DNA of 64,000 nucleotides, from the NCBI RefSeq assembly GCF_000221185.1, contig NC_015865.1, positions 124,001 to 188,000 of the forward strand, in the 5' to 3' direction. The DNA comes from Thermococcus sp. 4557 (GTDB lineage: Archaea > Methanobacteriota_B > Thermococci > Thermococcales > Thermococcaceae). The translations under genes and the position numbers were made by a program. The notes beneath the pieces are model-generated. The model was not told the origin of the DNA. It did not search any database and was given only the letters and a program-made list of their open reading frames with translations. Below, piece after piece: positions 13,547 through 60,100 of the stretch (positions within the stretch are counted from its first letter, which is position 1; each line of letters starts with the position of its first letter).

Positions 13547-16105
13547 CTTTTCGCACAATATTGTTCTACGGAAACCTCACCATGTGCCAGGCCCCCAATT
13601 ACTAAGTTTTACTCTTTCCACACAACACTGTTCTACGGAAACGCCTCGAAACGCTCATCCTGTTCCTCTCGGACGAGTATCCTTTCCACACAACACTGTT
13701 CTACGGAAACGAGAACTTTGGAGTTGTCAACGCGAACGTAGGGGCGAGCTTTCCACACAACACTGTTCTACGGAAACTCCTTCACCGTGTACTCCTTCTT
13801 GCGAGGGAAGGCGTCTTTCCACACAACACTGTTCTACGGAAACTCCTTTCCACCCGAGTAAAGCACCGCTGGCCTCCTGCCTTTCCACACAACACTGTTC
13901 TACGGAAACTAGAGCATGCAAAGGGCGCGTTCCATCGGGTCATGCTTTCCACACAACACTGTTCTACGGAAACGAGCTGAGCCCAGCGCGTCATTCCTCA
14001 ATCCTCCTTAGAATCACTTTCCACACAACACTGTTCTACGGAAACAGGATAGGGCCGGGGAAAATCCTCACCGAGACGCTCTTTCCACACAACACTGTTC
14101 TACGGAAACACTACTGCGACGTTGAGAAGCTCGACGGCGAGCGCGTCTTTCCACACAACACTGTTCTACGGAAACCGCCCTGCGCCATGTGGAAGAGGCT
14201 AAGGAAACCTGCTTTCCACACAACACTGTTCTACGGAAACTCGATGCAGCGTACTCCAATTACTCATACGTGAGCTTTGACTTTCCACACAACACTGTTC
14301 TACGGAAACATGGTAGGGCATCAGACGGGGTTTGCAGGTAGTCCAACTTTCCACACAACACTGTTCTACGGAAACCATAGTATCAGTTAGGCCGAGGGCC
14401 TCAGTTAGGACTTTCCACACAACACTGTTCTACGGAAACCGCCCTTATCCGGCTGTAATTATTGTATAATGCTACGACTTTCCACACAACACTGTTCTAC
14501 GGAAACAGAGATACGGGCCGCTGTGTGGAATGCAATTGCAAAAACTTTCCACACAACACTGTTCTACGGAAACGGAAAGGAGCCGGCCGGTTATAAGCTC
14601 GATGTTTACACTTTCCACACAACACTGTTCTACGGAAACAACGTCGTAATGCTTCCGTTAGATGCACCCCACCCGCCTTTCCACACAACACTGTTCTACG
14701 GAAACTCGATGTGATGGAAGTCCACCCGGCGAGGCGGCCGTCCTTTCCACACAACACTGTTCTACGGAAACTGACGCGCCCGCTAAACCCACACCCAGTC
14801 AGATGGACTTTCCACACAACACTGTTCTACGGAAACTTCTTGACCTGCTGGCGTTCCTGACGACAAGGCGAACTTTCCACACAACACTGTTCTACGGAAA
14901 CAAAAGCAGCCCCCTGCTCGAGCCATCAGCGCCGGGAGGAGTCTTTCCACACAACACTGTTCTACGGAAACAGGCCGCCCGGTCAAGAAGCGCTACAAGG
15001 TGGGGGACATCTTTCCACACAACACTGTTCTACGGAAACGTGGGTGTTCGTGATGAATACGGCGGTATTCATTACTTTCCACACAACACTGTTCTACGGA
15101 AACTATGAGGGCGTTCCTCAGCCCTTCCCGATACCGGTCACTTTCCACACAACACTGTTCTACGGAAACCTTGCGGAAGTTCGCGAGGGTCTAAATGAAA
15201 ATTATGTTCTTTCCACACAACACTGTTCTACGGAAACATTATCATGTGCCCTGGGAGAGGGTGGATGATGTGGTCTTTCCACACAACACTGTTCTACGGA
15301 AACGGACCGAGGACCCGAGGACCCTCGCGGCCGAGTTCGTCTTTCCACACAACACTGTTCTACGGAAACAAAGACGTGTACGCGGAAGTGAACGCAGAGG
15401 ATGGGCTTTCCACACAACACTGTTCTACGGAAACTTCTTATTGATGAAAAGATAAAGGAAGGGTACTTTTTCTTTCCACACAACACTGTTCTACGGAAAC
15501 GGTAGTTGATGAGGCAACTCATTATCAATATGTGTTCCGCTCTTTCCACACAACACTGTTCTACGGAAACCCTCGACAAGACGATAGAGGCCATCTGCAA
15601 AGCGTGCGGTCTTTCCACACAACACTGTTCTACGGAAACTAGATTTGGGCGATTTCTGAATCGCTGAGGGCGCGCGTACTTTCCACACAACACTGTTCTA
15701 CGGAAACTCGGGCCGGCGGTAGCATCACACGGAAGGACCTTTACTTTCCACACAACACTGTTCTACGGAAACCCGTTCACTCCGGGTGGTGAAAAGATGG
15801 CGTCCCCGTGCTTTCCACACAACACTGTTCTACGGAAACCAAATAACTGCTCAAAGGCTGGGTCGACGAAGTATGCTTCTTTCCACACAACACTGTTCTA
15901 CGGAAACAGCTTACCGTTACTCAGGCCGACGTCTCCGCTATCACTTTCCACACAACACTGTTCTACGGAAACACATACATAAGTCGAGGGGTCCGCTCGG
16001 AGTTTGGATTTCTTTCCACACAACACTGTTCTACGGAAACTCGATGAAGGACCCGCGAGCATGGAGAGGGACCCCGCTTTCCACACAACACTGTTCTACG
16101 GAAAC
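13547..16105 (-). CRISPR. CRISPR array 2: 39 repeats, 38 spacers
   Basis: Repeats of 29 bases read CTTTCCACACAACACTGTTC then TACGGAAAC on the plus strand, at 13547, 13614, 13682, 13749 and so on to 16077. Spacers are 35-43 bases and I saw no duplicates. The repeat differs from that of array 1 at positions 13, 14 and 19. The leftmost copy (13547-13575) has four changes (positions 5, 7, 13, 15), marking the leader-distal end, so the array is transcribed leftwards from the leader at 16106 onward. The crRNA handle GTGGAAAG is the same as in array 1. Several spacers look like coding DNA: the one at 15571-15610 can encode a CKACG-type zinc knuckle. Confidence 0.98.
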
Positions 16106-18300: not shown

Positions 18301-18433
18301 CGTGTTATGATTACCTAGGTTTCTACGTGTTCATAATTGTTTTTTAAAGTTGTTTACAGAAAACTCCAGAACACCGAAAGCTTAATAAGCGGCATTGATG
18401 TAACATTAAGTGCAAAACCCCGTTGGGGGGGCG

Positions 18434-18847
18434 ATGCCAAGGAAGGTGTTGGCCCTGTTTATGTTGGGAGTTTTGTTCTTTGCAGGAGTAGCCGTGGCAC
18501 TGGACGGCAACGAGCCGGAGGCAATAACCAGGGACCCCCTTGTCCACGACGAGAACATCTACGAGCCCACCGACGATGGAAGCCTCTACTGCTGGATAAG
18601 CGGGTACGCGAGCCAGAGCCAGCCCGGTTACCTCTACAACATATACGGCGATGCAAGGGGTATAGGGATATGCGGGCTCTGGTATAAGAAATTCAGCCCG
18701 TCCACCGCAACCCCACCGGCCGGATACGCTTGGGACTCTGCCCAAGTAGCCGCCACCGGCTGGTGCCCCTTCTGGCCCAAGACCATCTACGCCGAGATAA
18801 CCTGGGTCCCTGGGGTTGCTTACACAAGTACAACTGAAGAAAGCTGA
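18434..18847 (+). CDS. Small secreted protein heading ABC module 1
   Basis: A 137-aa protein with a clear signal peptide (PRKVLALFMLGVLFFAGVAVALA-like, cleavage near VALDG). The mature part of about 113 residues is acidic at first and then aromatic, with three cysteines (LYCW, GICG, GWCPF). It has no transmembrane tail, so it should be released or held by partners. A GTG at 18410 is in frame. The ATG at 18434 with GGGGGG before it, and the signal peptide, favour the later start. An AGCTTAATAAG TATA-like element lies at about 18378-18388. It is followed after 25 bases by the ABC-module genes, which suggests it is their substrate or periplasmic-side partner. Family not recognised. Confidence 0.78.
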   Translation: MPRKVLALFMLGVLFFAGVAVALDGNEPEAITRDPLVHDENIYEPTDDGSLYCWISGYASQSQPGYLYNIYGDARGIGICGLWYKKFSPSTATPPAGYAWDSAQVAATGWCPFWPKTIYAEITWVPGVAYTSTTEES

Positions 18848-18872
18848 GTGAATCTTAATCGGGGGGAATCAC

Positions 18873-19925
18873 ATGGAGAGGGTTTCCAGGTTCTTCGTTC
18901 TCCTCTTTTTTGTTCTTTTGGTTCTAAGCCCGCTCGTCTCGGCAACACCCTACTGGTTCAAGGAAGGGATTTATGCGAAGTACGTCGCCAGGGGCTGGCT
19001 GTCAATCGACCTGAACACCTCCACTGGGAACGTGACCTATTACTGCCCCCGGGTGGAGTTCACGTGGCGCGTCCTCAAGGTTTCCGACGACAAAGCCCAG
19101 GTGTCCCTTCTGCTCAGGGGGTTCAACTGCACCCGGGAGGCTTACTCTACCCTCAGCCTGGAAGAAGCGAGGGTCCTTCTCCGGAAGTACCAGGGGCGCT
19201 ACAACTTCACCGGAGGCGACTGCCTGGAGGTGCCGATCGCTGGCGGCAACGTCACCGTGTGCGAGGAGAGCTACTCTGAACGGACGGCACAGCGCTCCTT
19301 TGGCTTGATGATTATGGAGGGAGAGGGCAGGCTGTTCAACAAGTCCTACGTACCGGAGAACTTCAGCAGGGCAGGGGTCGTTGAAATCGACCTGGCCACC
19401 GGGAAAATTTACGTGAACGGCACTCCCGCTGGAGGAAACTTCCTCTGGGCCGAGAACCCGGCCAACGTGACCGGGCTTGAGATACTGCCCGGGCTGAAAA
19501 TCGAGACGGTCAAGATGATAAACTCGACCGCGATGACATACTACGGCGACTTCAACGCCCCGGTTTACATGGCCCACACGAACATGATGAGCCTCGACAA
19601 TTGGACTATGGGAAAGGACGTTATCCTCTACGACGGCTCGAGCGGTCTGGCGATAGCCTTCTTCACGCCCTTCAGCCCGCTGTGGAAGGCCCTCGGCGTG
19701 AGCAGTACCATGATTCAGGACACCGAGTTTGCCAAGGAGCACGAGAAGGAGATTAAGGAGAGCAACAAGATGCCGCCCTTCGGCCTCGTCCTGGCCAGGA
19801 CCAACATAGACTTCACCAGGGCCGAGGAGCTTCCCGACGAAGGCCCGTCCAGGACGGCGGTCTTCGCCGTCGCTGGCATCGCCGCGGTTCTCGGTGTTCT
19901 CTTCCTCTGGAGGTGGAGGCGGTGA
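18873..19925 (+). CDS. Signal-peptide, C-terminally anchored ectodomain protein of ABC module 1
   Basis: The 350-aa protein has an N-terminal signal sequence (SRFFVLLFFVLLVLSPLVSA). The mature protein begins YWFKEGIYAKYVA. A long glycosylatable ectodomain with four cysteines follows. It ends with a TNIDF segment, one transmembrane helix and RWRR. It is homologous to the protein encoded at 59039-60058: both have W-(F/L)-(K/R)-E-G-x-x-A-x-Y right after the signal peptide and T-N-I-x-F before the anchor. The stop overlaps the start of the permease gene, so the surface protein, permease, small protein and ATPase are co-translated. It may be an extracytoplasmic sensor or a substrate-handling subunit of the ABC complex; function unknown. 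Confidence 0.82.
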   Translation: MERVSRFFVLLFFVLLVLSPLVSATPYWFKEGIYAKYVARGWLSIDLNTSTGNVTYYCPRVEFTWRVLKVSDDKAQVSLLLRGFNCTREAYSTLSLEEARVLLRKYQGRYNFTGGDCLEVPIAGGNVTVCEESYSERTAQRSFGLMIMEGEGRLFNKSYVPENFSRAGVVEIDLATGKIYVNGTPAGGNFLWAENPANVTGLEILPGLKIETVKMINSTAMTYYGDFNAPVYMAHTNMMSLDNWTMGKDVILYDGSSGLAIAFFTPFSPLWKALGVSSTMIQDTEFAKEHEKEIKESNKMPPFGLVLARTNIDFTRAEELPDEGPSRTAVFAVAGIAAVLGVLFLWRWRR

Positions 19926-20665
19926 GGGAAGTCCTCCGCTGGGAGCTCCGCTCCCCGCTTAATTTAGCCCTGGCCTCGGCCGGGGCGGTTCTCGTTGGAA
20001 CCGTTATGAAGAGGTACTACATGACGTGGAGCGAAAGTGCCCACGGCGGACCTCACGGGGTCGAGGAGCTTGGCTCCGTTTTCAGGGACGCCTTCACCGG
20101 CGACGTTTACCTGATTCTGGCGATACTGGTTCCCTTCATAATAACCCTGGCCGTGAGGCTGGAAAGGGACGAGGGCGTTGCCCTCTCGGTGTACTCCCTT
20201 CCGGTTTCGAGGGTTAAAATACTCCTCGCCAAGTTCCTGGCGGCTTTCCTCGCGCTCTTCCTCTTCGTCTTCTCGGTACATCTCCTTGTCTTTGGCCTGC
20301 ACTTCTCGGCCACGCCGGGCGCCGTGCTCAGCGTTCTGAAAACCCACACCCTCCAGATGGCGTTCTTCTACCTCTCCGCCCTGCTCTTCATGACCTCGGT
20401 CGCGGCCCTGATAGCGATAGCCTCGCCCAACACCTACGTCTCCATCTTCGGGGGCTTCATAGTCCTTTACCTCCCCGAATTTTTGGGGACGACGTGGTAC
20501 GGGCCGGTGCCGTGGAGGAATTTCCTGATAAGTTACTATTTCGCCACCATTTCGATTCGAATGGATCCGCTGTTCTCGTGGGCCTTCGTGAAGATAACCC
20601 TCCTCCCGGCGCTGGTGTTACTTGCCCTATACCTGCTCATCGGCAACTGGAGGGACGTGAGATGA
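19913..20665 (+). CDS. ABC-2 type permease of module 1
   Basis: Six-helix integral membrane protein of 250 aa. Its N-terminal amphipathic start (EVLRWELRSPLNLAL) precedes the first membrane helix. The cytoplasmic loop VYSLPVSRVKILLAKFLAAF is where ABC-2 permeases contact the ATPase, and SPNTYVSIFGGF follows. All three segments recur in the permease at 58273-59052. A GTG at 19922 has a good GGAGGTGG. I keep the GTG at 19913 because the paralogue starts at the matching residue and the same ~13-base overlap with the upstream gene exists in both loci. Predicted role: export or membrane-remodelling channel with the ATPase at 21096. Confidence 0.85.
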   Translation: MEAVREVLRWELRSPLNLALASAGAVLVGTVMKRYYMTWSESAHGGPHGVEELGSVFRDAFTGDVYLILAILVPFIITLAVRLERDEGVALSVYSLPVSRVKILLAKFLAAFLALFLFVFSVHLLVFGLHFSATPGAVLSVLKTHTLQMAFFYLSALLFMTSVAALIAIASPNTYVSIFGGFIVLYLPEFLGTTWYGPVPWRNFLISYYFATISIRMDPLFSWAFVKITLLPALVLLALYLLIGNWRDVR

Positions 20666-21099
20666 GGCTCTTCCGGGCGCTCCTCCTCGTCCTCATGCTG
20701 GTCTCGCTTGTAAGCCTCGGCCTGCAGTCCAACCTCAAGCCGAGCGACGTTCACTACAAAACGGCCTTCGTGTCCGGGAGGGACGCAACAGCCGTTTACA
20801 TCTCCTCCATGGCGTCGGTGAAGCTCTACGCCGTCGGCACCGGGGAGTTCTGGATAGAAGACCTGCAGACGGGGGAGACTATATTCACCGGCGAAGTGGA
20901 GGGCAACGGGGCCTTCGCGCTCGTCTTTCCCCACCCCGGATACTATGAGTTCGGCGGGAACTCCACTCAGGGCATCACGATAACGATAACGCCCGTTGAT
21001 GTTGGCTTCCCAGGGAAGCAGAAATCCGCCCACCTGTGGGCATCGGCGTTGTTCGGCGGGCTTCTGGCGCTGACGCTCCTTGGAGGTGGCAGGAGATGA
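20662..21099 (+). CDS. Small membrane protein of ABC module 1
   Basis: A 145-aa protein with an N-terminal hydrophobic segment (LFRALLLVLMLVSLVSLGL), a beta-rich middle of about 90 residues and a C-terminal hydrophobic helix ending GGGRR. Topology should place the middle domain outside. It starts at an ATGA overlap with the permease and its own stop overlaps the ATPase ATG, so the gene is embedded in the transporter operon. The equivalent gene at 57827-58276 has the same size and two-anchor layout but little sequence in common. No family recognised; likely an accessory subunit. Confidence 0.78.
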   Translation: MRLFRALLLVLMLVSLVSLGLQSNLKPSDVHYKTAFVSGRDATAVYISSMASVKLYAVGTGEFWIEDLQTGETIFTGEVEGNGAFALVFPHPGYYEFGGNSTQGITITITPVDVGFPGKQKSAHLWASALFGGLLALTLLGGGRR

Positions 21100-21791
21100 G
21101 CGCGGTAATCGAGGCAAGGGATTTGCACAAGTACTTTGGGCCGATAAAGGCCCTTAAGGGTGTCACCGTCGAGATACCCGAGGGCCTGACGCTCATCCTC
21201 GGGCCCAACGGCGGCGGGAAGAGCACCTTCATGAAGGTCGCACTGGGCCTCTACAAGCCGACTAAGGGGACCGTGAGGCTCCTCGGAAAGAACCCCTGGA
21301 AGCACCCAGAAACGAGGAAATCCGTTGGCGTGGCCTTCGACCCCGGAAGGTTCCCGAAGCTGACGACGGGGCGGGAGTGGCTGGAGTTCATTGCGCGGAC
21401 GCGGGGAGCGAACCCGGACGATGTTGAAAAGGCCGCCGGGCTCTTTGGCATCGAAGACGCCCTCGACAGGAGGATAGACGGCTACTCCTCGGGAATGGTG
21501 AAGAGGCTCAGCCTTGCGCAGGCTTTCGTGGGAGAGCCGGCTGTTGTGTTCCTGGACGAGCCGCTGGCCAACCTGGACTTTGAGAGCGTCGCCGAAATCG
21601 TGGGCATCATCGGGAAGTGGAAGGGCAGGGGCAGGAGCTTTATTCTCATAAGCCACATATGGGAGCCCTTTGAAGGGCTGGCCGACTACGGGGTGGTCAT
21701 CAGCGGCGGAAAGGTTTACCTGAAGGGCCAGTTCTCGGAGATACGTGAAAAGATTGAGGGCATGTTCCGGCCGCCCGCGGTGGGGGAATGA
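21096..21791 (+). CDS. ABC transporter ATPase of module 1 (Asp Q-loop)
   Basis: Nucleotide-binding subunit (231 aa) driving the permease at 19913. Walker A is GPNGGGKST (about residues 36-44). The Q-loop position reads VGVAFDPGRFPKLT, with Asp where Gln is usual. The signature is YSSGM, Walker B VVFLDEP, and the switch His is in ISHIWEPF. The FDP and HIW-x-PF segments are shared with the ATPase at 57156 but not with the ABC ATPase at 39108. The frame is open to 21036. The ATG at 21096 with GGAGGTGGCAGG upstream and a TGA overlap is the start. All residues needed for ATP hydrolysis are present. Confidence 0.92.
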   Translation: MSAVIEARDLHKYFGPIKALKGVTVEIPEGLTLILGPNGGGKSTFMKVALGLYKPTKGTVRLLGKNPWKHPETRKSVGVAFDPGRFPKLTTGREWLEFIARTRGANPDDVEKAAGLFGIEDALDRRIDGYSSGMVKRLSLAQAFVGEPAVVFLDEPLANLDFESVAEIVGIIGKWKGRGRSFILISHIWEPFEGLADYGVVISGGKVYLKGQFSEIREKIEGMFRPPAVGE

Positions 21792-57155: not shown

Positions 57156-57830
57156 TCACAGGGGAAACGCTTTTTCCAGCAATGGGTAGACGTCCTCAGG
57201 AGAACCCGCGGCCTGTACCTTCCCAGCTGCTATTAAAACAGCGTAATCTGCTATTTCCATGAAGGGGCGCCAGATGTGGGCGATTACTACAAGATTCAGG
57301 CCGTTCTTGTGTTCTTCCCTTATAACCTCCATTACGTCCCTCATGCCTTTTAGGTCGAGATTGGCCAGCGGCTCGTCGAGGAACACCACCTCCGGGTCTC
57401 CCACGAACGCCTGGGCGAGGCTCACCCTCTTCCGCATGCCCGCGGAGTAGTCCCGAATCTTTTTTCCAATGAACCCCCCGGACCCAAACATCTCCGCGGC
57501 CTTTTGGACGCTCTCTCCGTCACCCCCTCTAGCCTCTGAGATGTATTCCAACCACTCCAGCCCTGTCCTCAGCGGTGGGAGGGCCGGCGGGTCGAAGGAG
57601 ACGCCGATTCTCCTCTTTATTTGCTCGTTCTTCCAAGGGTCTTCTCCAAGGACCTTTATCCTTCCCGCAGTCGGCCTGTACGCTCCGGCGGCGATTTTCA
57701 GGAAAGTGGACTTGCCGCCCCCGTTGGGGCCAACTATGACCGTCAATCCCTCCGGAATCTCAACGTCAACGGAGTTCAGGGCGAGGACACTCCCGAAGCG
57801 CTTTGTAAGTTTCTCTGCCCTCACTATCAT
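57156..57830 (-). CDS. ABC transporter ATPase of module 2 (Asp Q-loop)
   Basis: A 224-aa ATPase, clear paralogue of the one at 21096. Walker A is GPNGGGKST (about 34-42). The Q-loop position is IGVSFDPPALPPLRT (Asp instead of Gln), the signature YSAGM, Walker B VVFLDEP and the switch His IAHIWRPF. The ATG overlaps the stop of the small protein upstream. Energy subunit for the permease at 58273. Confidence 0.93.
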   Translation of the reverse strand: MIVRAEKLTKRFGSVLALNSVDVEIPEGLTVIVGPNGGGKSTFLKIAAGAYRPTAGRIKVLGEDPWKNEQIKRRIGVSFDPPALPPLRTGLEWLEYISEARGGDGESVQKAAEMFGSGGFIGKKIRDYSAGMRKRVSLAQAFVGDPEVVFLDEPLANLDLKGMRDVMEVIREEHKNGLNLVVIAHIWRPFMEIADYAVLIAAGKVQAAGSPEDVYPLLEKAFPL

Positions 57831-58276
57831 TGCTTCACCCCCACCCAGAGTAGAGCGGCGAGAACAAACGCCACCGTTCCGCCGATCAGGTACTCAATTT
57901 TCAGAACTCCTCTAGATGGATACATCGCGAGGGTTCCAACGGCTATCCTCGCAGTGCCGTTTCCACGGTACACGAAATAGTACGTGCCGGAATCGGGAAG
58001 TTCCAGCTCCCGGTACATGTTCCCCACTGCGGTCAGGTTCGTGATGAACCTGTTCCGGACGCCATCGAACACCTCGATTTCATACCTGTCCTGATTTTCC
58101 GTTACGACGCTGATGGCAACCTTTCTCGCGGTCGGGACAAACACCGAAACGGAGGAACCATCATCGCTGAAGAACCCGTAGGCCGTTGGGGTCTTCTGGT
58201 AGTACCTGGGAAGAAGTAGCGATTCTATGGTGAAGAGAAGGAGGGCAAGGAGAAAGAACGCCGCAAACCTCTTCAC
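57827..58276 (-). CDS. Small membrane protein of ABC module 2
   Basis: A 149-aa protein with an N-terminal hydrophobic segment (FAAFFLLALLLFTIESLLL), a ~85-residue extracytoplasmic beta domain (ARKVAISVVTENQDRYEIEV ... PDSGTYYFVYRGNGTARIAV) and a C-terminal helix (GGTVAFVLAALLWVGV). It starts at a GTG overlapping the permease stop. Same size, topology and gene position as the protein at 20662. The PDSGTYYF/HPGYYEF turn before the last strands is the only clear shared sequence. Confidence 0.78.
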   Translation of the reverse strand: MKRFAAFFLLALLLFTIESLLLPRYYQKTPTAYGFFSDDGSSVSVFVPTARKVAISVVTENQDRYEIEVFDGVRNRFITNLTAVGNMYRELELPDSGTYYFVYRGNGTARIAVGTLAMYPSRGVLKIEYLIGGTVAFVLAALLWVGVKQ

Positions 58277-59052
58277 CGGGCATCCCTCCTTTCGCTGAGG
58301 ATTATCGATGCCGCCAACAGCGTGGATGGGAGGAAAAACCCGACTCTGACCACATTCCCGTAGGCGGCAACTGTGTGTACCATTCCATAGGCCACCGAAC
58401 TCAGATAGGATGACATGGCGGCAGAGATGCTGAACGGGGGCAGGCTGGATACCCCGAGAATAACCGGGACGTACAGTACTGAGAGTCCTCCCAGGATAGA
58501 GGCGAACGAATTGGGGGATAGCAGGGCTATGAAAAGGGAGACCGAGACCGTGTAGAAGACCGCAATCAGGAAAAACACCAGAACATTACTCCAAACCCCA
58601 TCTCCAAGTATCTCGGCGAGGAGAGAAGGAGAGCCGGAGAGGACGTACCCCACGGCCAGGAAATAGGGGACCACGAACGATAGGGCTGTCAGAAGGAGGA
58701 TTGAGGAAAATTTGATCAGGAACAGCTTCCACTTCCTTATCGGGAGTGAGTAAACGGTTAGAGCTGCCAGCGAGTCCATCTCGCCCCTTATTGAAAGAGT
58801 GGAGAGCATAACTGCAACGAAGACAAGAACGCTGTACGCTTCCTGGGACAAAACAGGTAGGGCGAGCCTTGGAATGGTCTTGGCGTAGTGAACGGCGGAT
58901 TCCTGGCTGAAGGGGCTCAACATGCCGGTTGCCCCCATACTGAGGGCGTCCTTCAAGAACGCCAGCCCCGTCAGCAGGAACCCGAAGAGGAAAACGGCGA
59001 GCTTCAGCGGGTCGTTCAGCTCCCATTTCAGCTGGGTTCTAACGGTGCCCAT
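58273..59052 (-). CDS. ABC-2 type permease of module 2
   Basis: A 259-aa six-helix permease. It shares with the module 1 permease the start LKWELNDPLKLAV (LRWELRSPLNLAL there), the coupling loop VYSLPIRKWKLFLIKF (VYSLPVSRVKILLAKF) and SPNSFASILGGLSVLYVP (SPNTYVSIFGGFIVLYLP). GAGGTGGTGG precedes the ATG, which lies 14 bases inside the upstream gene. Transported substrate unknown. Confidence 0.86.
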   Translation of the reverse strand: MGTVRTQLKWELNDPLKLAVFLFGFLLTGLAFLKDALSMGATGMLSPFSQESAVHYAKTIPRLALPVLSQEAYSVLVFVAVMLSTLSIRGEMDSLAALTVYSLPIRKWKLFLIKFSSILLLTALSFVVPYFLAVGYVLSGSPSLLAEILGDGVWSNVLVFFLIAVFYTVSVSLFIALLSPNSFASILGGLSVLYVPVILGVSSLPPFSISAAMSSYLSSVAYGMVHTVAAYGNVVRVGFFLPSTLLAASIILSERRDAR

Positions 59053-60058
59053 TATTCCACCACCTCACCAGAAGTGAAGCCATCAGTGCCAGAATCCCGG
59101 AGTACAGGTAGTACCTCCAGGGGTTATCGGGAGGGGAAGAGTCTCCTTCGTCGGGAAAAGCGATGTTCGTGTCGTACAGTTTGATGCCGTCCGGCCACAC
59201 ACCATCTTCTGATTTTCCACGGATTCTTCTGTCCATACTGTCGATACCGAAAACTCCAAGGGCCATCAGCTCGGTGGAGTGGCTGAAGGTTCCCGCTATC
59301 ATGACGCCGGTTAGGAAGTCGTAGGTGTATTCCTCCCTTCCACCCCCAGAGATTGACCAGTTCTTCCCGGCCTCGCTGAAGTAGAACCTCCGGGTTGTTA
59401 TCCCAATGTGGGGCGGCCTGAAGGGTCTGTAGTACGTCAGAACCGTGCTGTTGCCGTAGGCGCTGTAGGTGACGTTCCCCACCGAGACGTTGATCTCCCT
59501 TGAAAGCCCCTCAAGTCTGAAGAGCACCTTCCCGGGTCTCGGTGGATCCGATGGGTTGATGAAGAGGGTGGCTTTTCCGATGGGGGTTCCGTTATCAAAG
59601 TACGTCATGGTTGTCAGGTTAAGGTCCAGCACCTTCCATATCGTCAAATTGGGGATTATTTCGAGATAATTGCCCTCGAGGGTGGCATTCACAAACGTCA
59701 CGCTGACGTTAACGCGGGCAAGTTCTTTTTGGATAGTGACGATCTCAAAACGCAGAAATATTCTGGTGCAGTCTCCGATTACAAACGGGAATCCGTCTTT
59801 TTTCCACGGAGAATCGTCGCTCAAGCGGCTTATGATGTCGATTCTAACACTGGAAGGAAGCATTTCGGGATAAAGCTGAAACATGTACAGGTCCCTAATG
59901 TCCCTTGGGCCGCCTTCGGGTTCAGGGAGTGCATACGTTGCGTGGGTGCCTTCTCTGAGCCACCCGGCTGTTTCCCATGCCGAAGTGGTTGAGGGTACCC
60001 CTTGAAAAGCAATAATCAGTACGATTAGTGTAATAACTCTTCCGAGTTTTCCTCTAAT
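59039..60058 (-). CDS. Anchored ectodomain protein of ABC module 2, probable ATT start
   Basis: The first ATG in frame (59884) gives 281 aa without a signal peptide. The frame is open upstream to a stop at 60065-60067. An ATT at 60058, six bases after GGTGA and 13 bases after the predicted transcript start, would give 339 aa beginning with a textbook signal peptide (RGKLGRVITLIVLIIAFQG) and then AGWLREGTHATYAL, which aligns with YWFKEGIYAKYVA of the module 1 paralogue. The C terminus has the shared T-N-I-x-F, one membrane helix and a basic tail. No ATG, GTG or TTG occurs in frame between the stop and 59884. The long form is preferred. Function unknown. Confidence 0.8.
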   Translation of the reverse strand: MRGKLGRVITLIVLIIAFQGVPSTTSAWETAGWLREGTHATYALPEPEGGPRDIRDLYMFQLYPEMLPSSVRIDIISRLSDDSPWKKDGFPFVIGDCTRIFLRFEIVTIQKELARVNVSVTFVNATLEGNYLEIIPNLTIWKVLDLNLTTMTYFDNGTPIGKATLFINPSDPPRPGKVLFRLEGLSREINVSVGNVTYSAYGNSTVLTYYRPFRPPHIGITTRRFYFSEAGKNWSISGGGREEYTYDFLTGVMIAGTFSHSTELMALGVFGIDSMDRRIRGKSEDGVWPDGIKLYDTNIAFPDEGDSSPPDNPWRYYLYSGILALMASLLVRWWNNGHR

Positions 60059-60100
60059 CGGAGGTCACCAACAGGTGTGACGATTGAACGTCTTATAAAT
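60059..60100 (-). promoter_or_regulatory. Promoter and ribosome binding site before the ATT start
   Basis: On the minus strand: TATA box ATTTATAA (60093-60100), predicted transcript start about 60071, GGTGACC (60063-60069) and then the ATT codon. Spacing of each element is normal for Thermococcales; only the start codon is not. Confidence 0.7.

Follow-up and report, generated by a model that had tools for sequence, protein, structure and literature searches.

The gene on the minus strand at positions 59039-60058 of the 64,000-nucleotide stretch of Thermococcus sp. 4557 DNA analysed here (the window) raises the question of where its translation begins. Gene finders applied to archaea normally accept no start codons other than ATG, GTG and TTG, and therefore genes initiated at AUU enter the databases without their N-termini and signal peptides. 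At this locus the first canonical start codon is an ATG at 59882-59884, and the frame remains open upstream of it through 58 codons that contain no ATG, GTG or TTG. The initial annotation had proposed that the gene starts at an ATT (60056-60058), six bases after a GGTGA motif and in register with a TATA box, and all of these coordinates proved correct. The comparisons presented below lead us to consider AUU at 60058 the likely working start codon of a gene of 339 codons (stop TAG, 59041-59039), initiation itself being what we infer from sequence.

Read on the minus strand, the region comprises the TATA box ATTTATAA (60093-60100), directly preceded by a BRE-like GGTAAC, then the Shine-Dalgarno (SD) sequence GGTGA (60065-60069), the spacer CCTCCG, the ATT, 338 sense codons and TAG, the ATT being in frame with the open reading frame that ends at 59039. 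Just upstream of the ATT, the main frame is closed by a TGA (60067-60065) that overlaps the SD. The latter pairs over five bases with the 3′ end of the 16S rRNA (...GATCACCTCCT), a short pairing that counts as a point against the AUU start; the published consensus, cited beside 5′UTR medians of 11-12 nt (PMC5316973) and 16 nt (PMC4247193), is GGDGRD. The spacing of 6 nt between GGTGA and the ATT lies at the long edge of the range obtained when SD spacing was calibrated on this genome, where the peak is at 4-5 nt, and the same spacer length is used by homologues of the gene, so that the ATT follows a ribosome-binding site at a working distance. This configuration is rare: among 7,413 ATT triplets counted on both strands over 464 kb of the genome (a single contig of 2.01 Mb), 62 have GGTGA or GGTGG 4-6 nt upstream and 24 have TTTATA 30-48 nt upstream, and the one triplet with both elements correctly placed (0.2 expected) is the ATT at 60058.

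A search covering 61 genomes of Thermococcus found orthologues in three other species (G032, G002 and G059; 92, 91 and 90% amino-acid identity, respectively). All three have ATT at the aligned codon and none has ATG, GTG or TTG there; they also share the TATA box, the 6-nt spacer and the leader, with GGTGA or, in G059, GGTGG as the SD. Identity of the ATT alone is weak evidence, because 20 of the 24 isoleucine codons common to the four species are identical anyway. The weight of the comparison lies in the fact that a canonical start occurs at this position in none of the four, this genome (G000) included, and that no canonical start able to yield the conserved N-terminus is found in any of them. 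In all four, the 339 codons are open, without stop or indel. Between G002 and G059 (L004 and L005; gene at 1501-2517), dS is 0.06 in the gene body and 0.30 in codons 2-58, a pattern that recombination confined to the body of the gene, sparing its start region, would produce. In another genome, the orthologue (G017:C1:1862003-1862807) lies in several pieces with stops and strand changes, and its sequence suggests either a pseudogene or a rearrangement of the region.

Over its first 58 codons the gene shows the substitution pattern of coding sequence. When the sister orthologues are compared with this genome, dN/dS is 0.24-0.44 in codons 2-58 and 0.14-0.18 (also given as about 0.15-0.2) in the gene body; signal peptides usually evolve at a looser rate. 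The hydropathy maximum falls at residues 7-18, after the basic RGKLGR, and the AlphaFold model (mean pLDDT 81) places a helix at residues 2-19 and a strand at 39-44. The signal peptide that was claimed to result from the ATT start, (M/I)RGKLGRVITLIVLIIAFQGVPSTTSA (59978-60058), was judged on hydropathy, on homology and on the structure model, all of which support it. Aligned homologues likewise have a hydrophobic leader, after which comes W-[LF]-[KR]-x-G-x-[YH]-x-x-Y. The segment WLREGTHATY, to which the initial annotation had drawn attention, is present in the product, its counterpart in the paralogue at 18873 is WFKEGIYAKY, and W-L-x-x-G-x-x-x-x-Y is near-universal in homologues; none of the 27 aligned sequences departs from G37 or Y42, and W33 is nearly invariant. 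A C-terminal helix (residues 314-337), modelled with low confidence, fits a membrane anchor, and the 339-codon product is predicted to be an exported, beta-rich protein with a C-terminal transmembrane anchor. Searches of Pfam and NCBIfam returned no family match for it, and sequence and fold searches of the PDB no reliable relative.

More distant homologues carry a canonical codon where the four species have ATT. In eight of them (L012-L015, L017, L019, L020 and L022; ~30% identity) the start region reads GGTGA-N6-GTG-CGG, to be compared with GGTGA-N6-ATT-AGA in the ATT clade, and in seven of these eight, aligned with the four ATT loci, the GTG sits exactly on the ATT without any gap, followed by Arg, then by Gly, Ala or Thr, and then usually by Lys. 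The ATT also aligns with the ATG or GTG start region of orthologues. A contig scan for further relatives gave a single match, to a relative already found. Taken as an interpretation, the AUU start is therefore supported by the orthologues, by the coding character of the N-terminus and by conservation within the family.

The surroundings of the gene differ among its relatives. In G058, G046, G022 and G003 it starts with ATG or GTG and is preceded by a small secreted-looking gene; in the ATT clade and in G020 this upstream gene is absent, and a TATA promoter stands directly before the gene. Such an upstream gene, of ~140 codons and with a TTG or GTG start, was observed in L006, L008, L009 and L010, and its product may act together with the anchored protein. 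The G020 gene (~75% identical) carries ATC in place of the ATT in its start region (L007 1459-1503), and 9 nt before this ATC comes a GTG in frame with it, near the predicted 5′ end of the transcript. The corresponding GTG of the four ATT species is 10 nt upstream and out of frame (GTG GCC in G059). Judged from these sequences, two histories can be proposed: either the GTG served the ancestor as a leaderless start and AUU came to the rescue after a one-base insertion in the ATT clade, or ATT/ATC was the earlier start and the in-frame GTG was acquired by G020.

Initiation at the AUU could proceed as follows. Given a TATA-to-transcription start site (TSS) distance of ~23 bp in Thermococcus kodakarensis (PMC4247193) and the rule of a pyrimidine at -1 and a purine at +1 (PMC5316973), the transcript directed by the TATA box would have its first nucleotide near G60069, so that a leader of ~11 nt would precede the AUU and the mRNA would open with the SD GGUGA. 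Pairing of GGUGA with UCACC at the 3′ end of 16S rRNA would then bring AUU into the P site, to be read there by the usual initiator Met-tRNA with a mismatch at the third position, and the protein would begin Met-Arg-Gly-Lys, with methionine as the presumed first residue, and carry a normal signal peptide. Since aIF1 in archaea acts against initiation at non-canonical codons (PMC6237735), SD-led initiation at AUU 60058 is expected to be weak, and probably is. The first 60 nt of the RNA fold no better than shuffled sequences in three species, and no structure of this segment is common to all four.

The most serious rival explanation is that translation begins at the GUG at 60068, leaderless or nearly so, where the mRNA is predicted to start, and that ribosomes shift by +1 into the main frame before they meet the UAG at 60056-60054. 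The out-of-frame GTG ACC TCC GAT TAG (60054-60068) is indeed present, as GTG ACC/GCC TCC GAT TAG, at the expected TSS in all four species. The predicted TSS is 0-1 nt from this GTG and ~11 nt from the ATT, an mRNA being counted as leaderless when no more than 5-8 nt separate its TSS from the start codon. In G020, moreover, the GTG that precedes the ATC is in frame, and its distance from the TATA box is about that seen in the ATT species. Against this, a slip from GAU to AUU is implausible for tRNA-Asp and a slippery run is absent, the GTG lies within the SD, which already explains its conservation, and 94.9% of the leaderless mRNAs of T. onnurineus start with ATG (PMC5316973). We regard this route as improbable.

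Translation might also begin further downstream, at ATG 59884 in this genome and at an in-frame GTG inside the signal peptide in the sisters, where such a GTG is found at codon 21 in G032, G002 and G059. These codons have the merit of being canonical; however, they differ between species, and their use would cost the signal peptide either its charged end and its core or its whole length. A start at ATG 59884 would delete, together with the signal peptide, W33, G37, Y42 and the strand at 39-44, no SD-like sequence immediately precedes it, and the codons upstream of it are under coding constraint. The chance that these downstream codons are the true starts seems slim.

A comparably slim chance attaches to the view that the common ancestor of the four species had already lost the start codon and that little or no full-length product is now made, the locus being an early pseudogene or a transcribed operon leader. 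The missing canonical start, the fragmented orthologue in G017 and the absence of the upstream partner gene from the ATT clade would fit such a decay, but the reading frame has been kept intact over its whole length in four species and the dN/dS of its body, at about 0.15-0.2, is that of a constrained gene. Finally, a sequencing or assembly error at 60058, hiding an ATG or GTG, has a negligible probability, since the independent genomes of three other species have the same ATT and flanks, which effectively answers that concern.

The AUU start thus remains the preferred reading, and it would be a rare event. That such initiation is rare had been asserted at the outset and agrees with published counts: in the ATGC genome clusters analysed by Belinky et al. 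(2017), AUU replaces 1 in 61,358 ancestral AUG starts and 1 in 5,080 ancestral GUG starts (PMC5622118). Those data resemble the present case in that a start codon has been replaced by AUU; they are counts only, whereas here a locus is described in which AUU is retained throughout a clade. Other non-canonical starts were sought in a genome sample of 207 conserved gene-like ORFs common to G032. After the 23 strongest leads had been checked and those inside other genes removed, the 59039-60058 locus alone was left, as the only checked, conserved and non-overlapping coding lead without a canonical start. Two further candidates were rejected: L036 19288-19581 has a stop inside it in G032, and the lead before 4050 in L052 is non-coding. 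A scan of the whole genome for GAGGTGA-N(3-6)-ATT gave 10 sites, versus 7 in the reversed control, and none of them is a plausible start; this lack of a second example, or of any other plausible ATT start with a strong SD, is a point against the AUU start.

Precedents are known from bacteria and from one archaeal lineage. The infC gene, encoding IF3, starts with AUU in Escherichia coli and with ATC in Streptomyces (PMC5472188). Like the case proposed here, it is a single gene with an AUU/AUC start, and its poor codon limits translation (PMC5472188); unlike it, infC is bacterial and autoregulated by IF3, while the archaeal protein at issue is predicted to be membrane-anchored. The product matched no initiation factor, which speaks against autoregulation through the start codon of the IF3 type. 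The sigR gene of Streptomyces shares with our locus a non-canonical start that gene finders misannotate, and its expression is kept low (PMC5472188), but its codon is GTC rather than ATT and its use in this bacterium was shown by experiment, whereas the AUU start proposed here is deduced. Closest is the atubA tubulin of the Asgard archaeon Kari, for which an ATT start was inferred from a missing N-terminus, alignment and the spacing of the ribosome-binding site (PMC13394414). That case was drawn from one gene, while here the ATT is common to four species and homologues have GTG. A literature search, which reached mainly papers outside subscription, found no demonstrated AUU start in Thermococcales; a comparatively supported one in this order thus appears to be new, the kind itself being known from infC and the Asgard tubulin. 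In a genus that includes the genetically tractable T. kodakarensis, a conserved AUU start would offer a natural substrate for studies of initiation, and the locus allows one to ask how strictly the eukaryote-like factors aIF1, aIF1A and aIF2 reject non-AUG codons in vivo.

On the same strand the gene is followed by an ABC-2 type permease (58273-59052), whose frame overlaps its end by 14 bases, a small membrane or secreted protein (57827-58276) without Pfam or NCBIfam family, and an ABC transporter ATP-binding protein (57156-57830). From this overlap, translational coupling between the AUU gene and the permease is possible, and therefore weak initiation may limit the whole operon. The poor start codon would then keep the protein and, via the overlapping frames, the ABC operon at a low level, or leave them open to control by aIF1 stringency. 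One may go further and view AUU as a selected throttle, by which aIF1 stringency sets the amount of the exported protein and of the coupled transporter, in an archaeal counterpart of infC and sigR; this we hold to be doubtful, though worth stating. A throttle of this type might also operate in G020, where the codon is ATC. A second copy of the operon, at 18410-21791 of the window, encodes a small secreted protein, an anchored beta-rich protein, a permease, a small protein and an ABC ATPase, and its anchored-protein gene has a normal ATG at 18873. Elsewhere in the window, at 14524-16105, there is a CRISPR array with at least 24 copies of the 29-nt repeat CTTTCCACACAACACTGTTCTACGGAAAC, spaced 64-70 nt apart, and the ORFs listed within this interval are artefacts of the CRISPR repeats.
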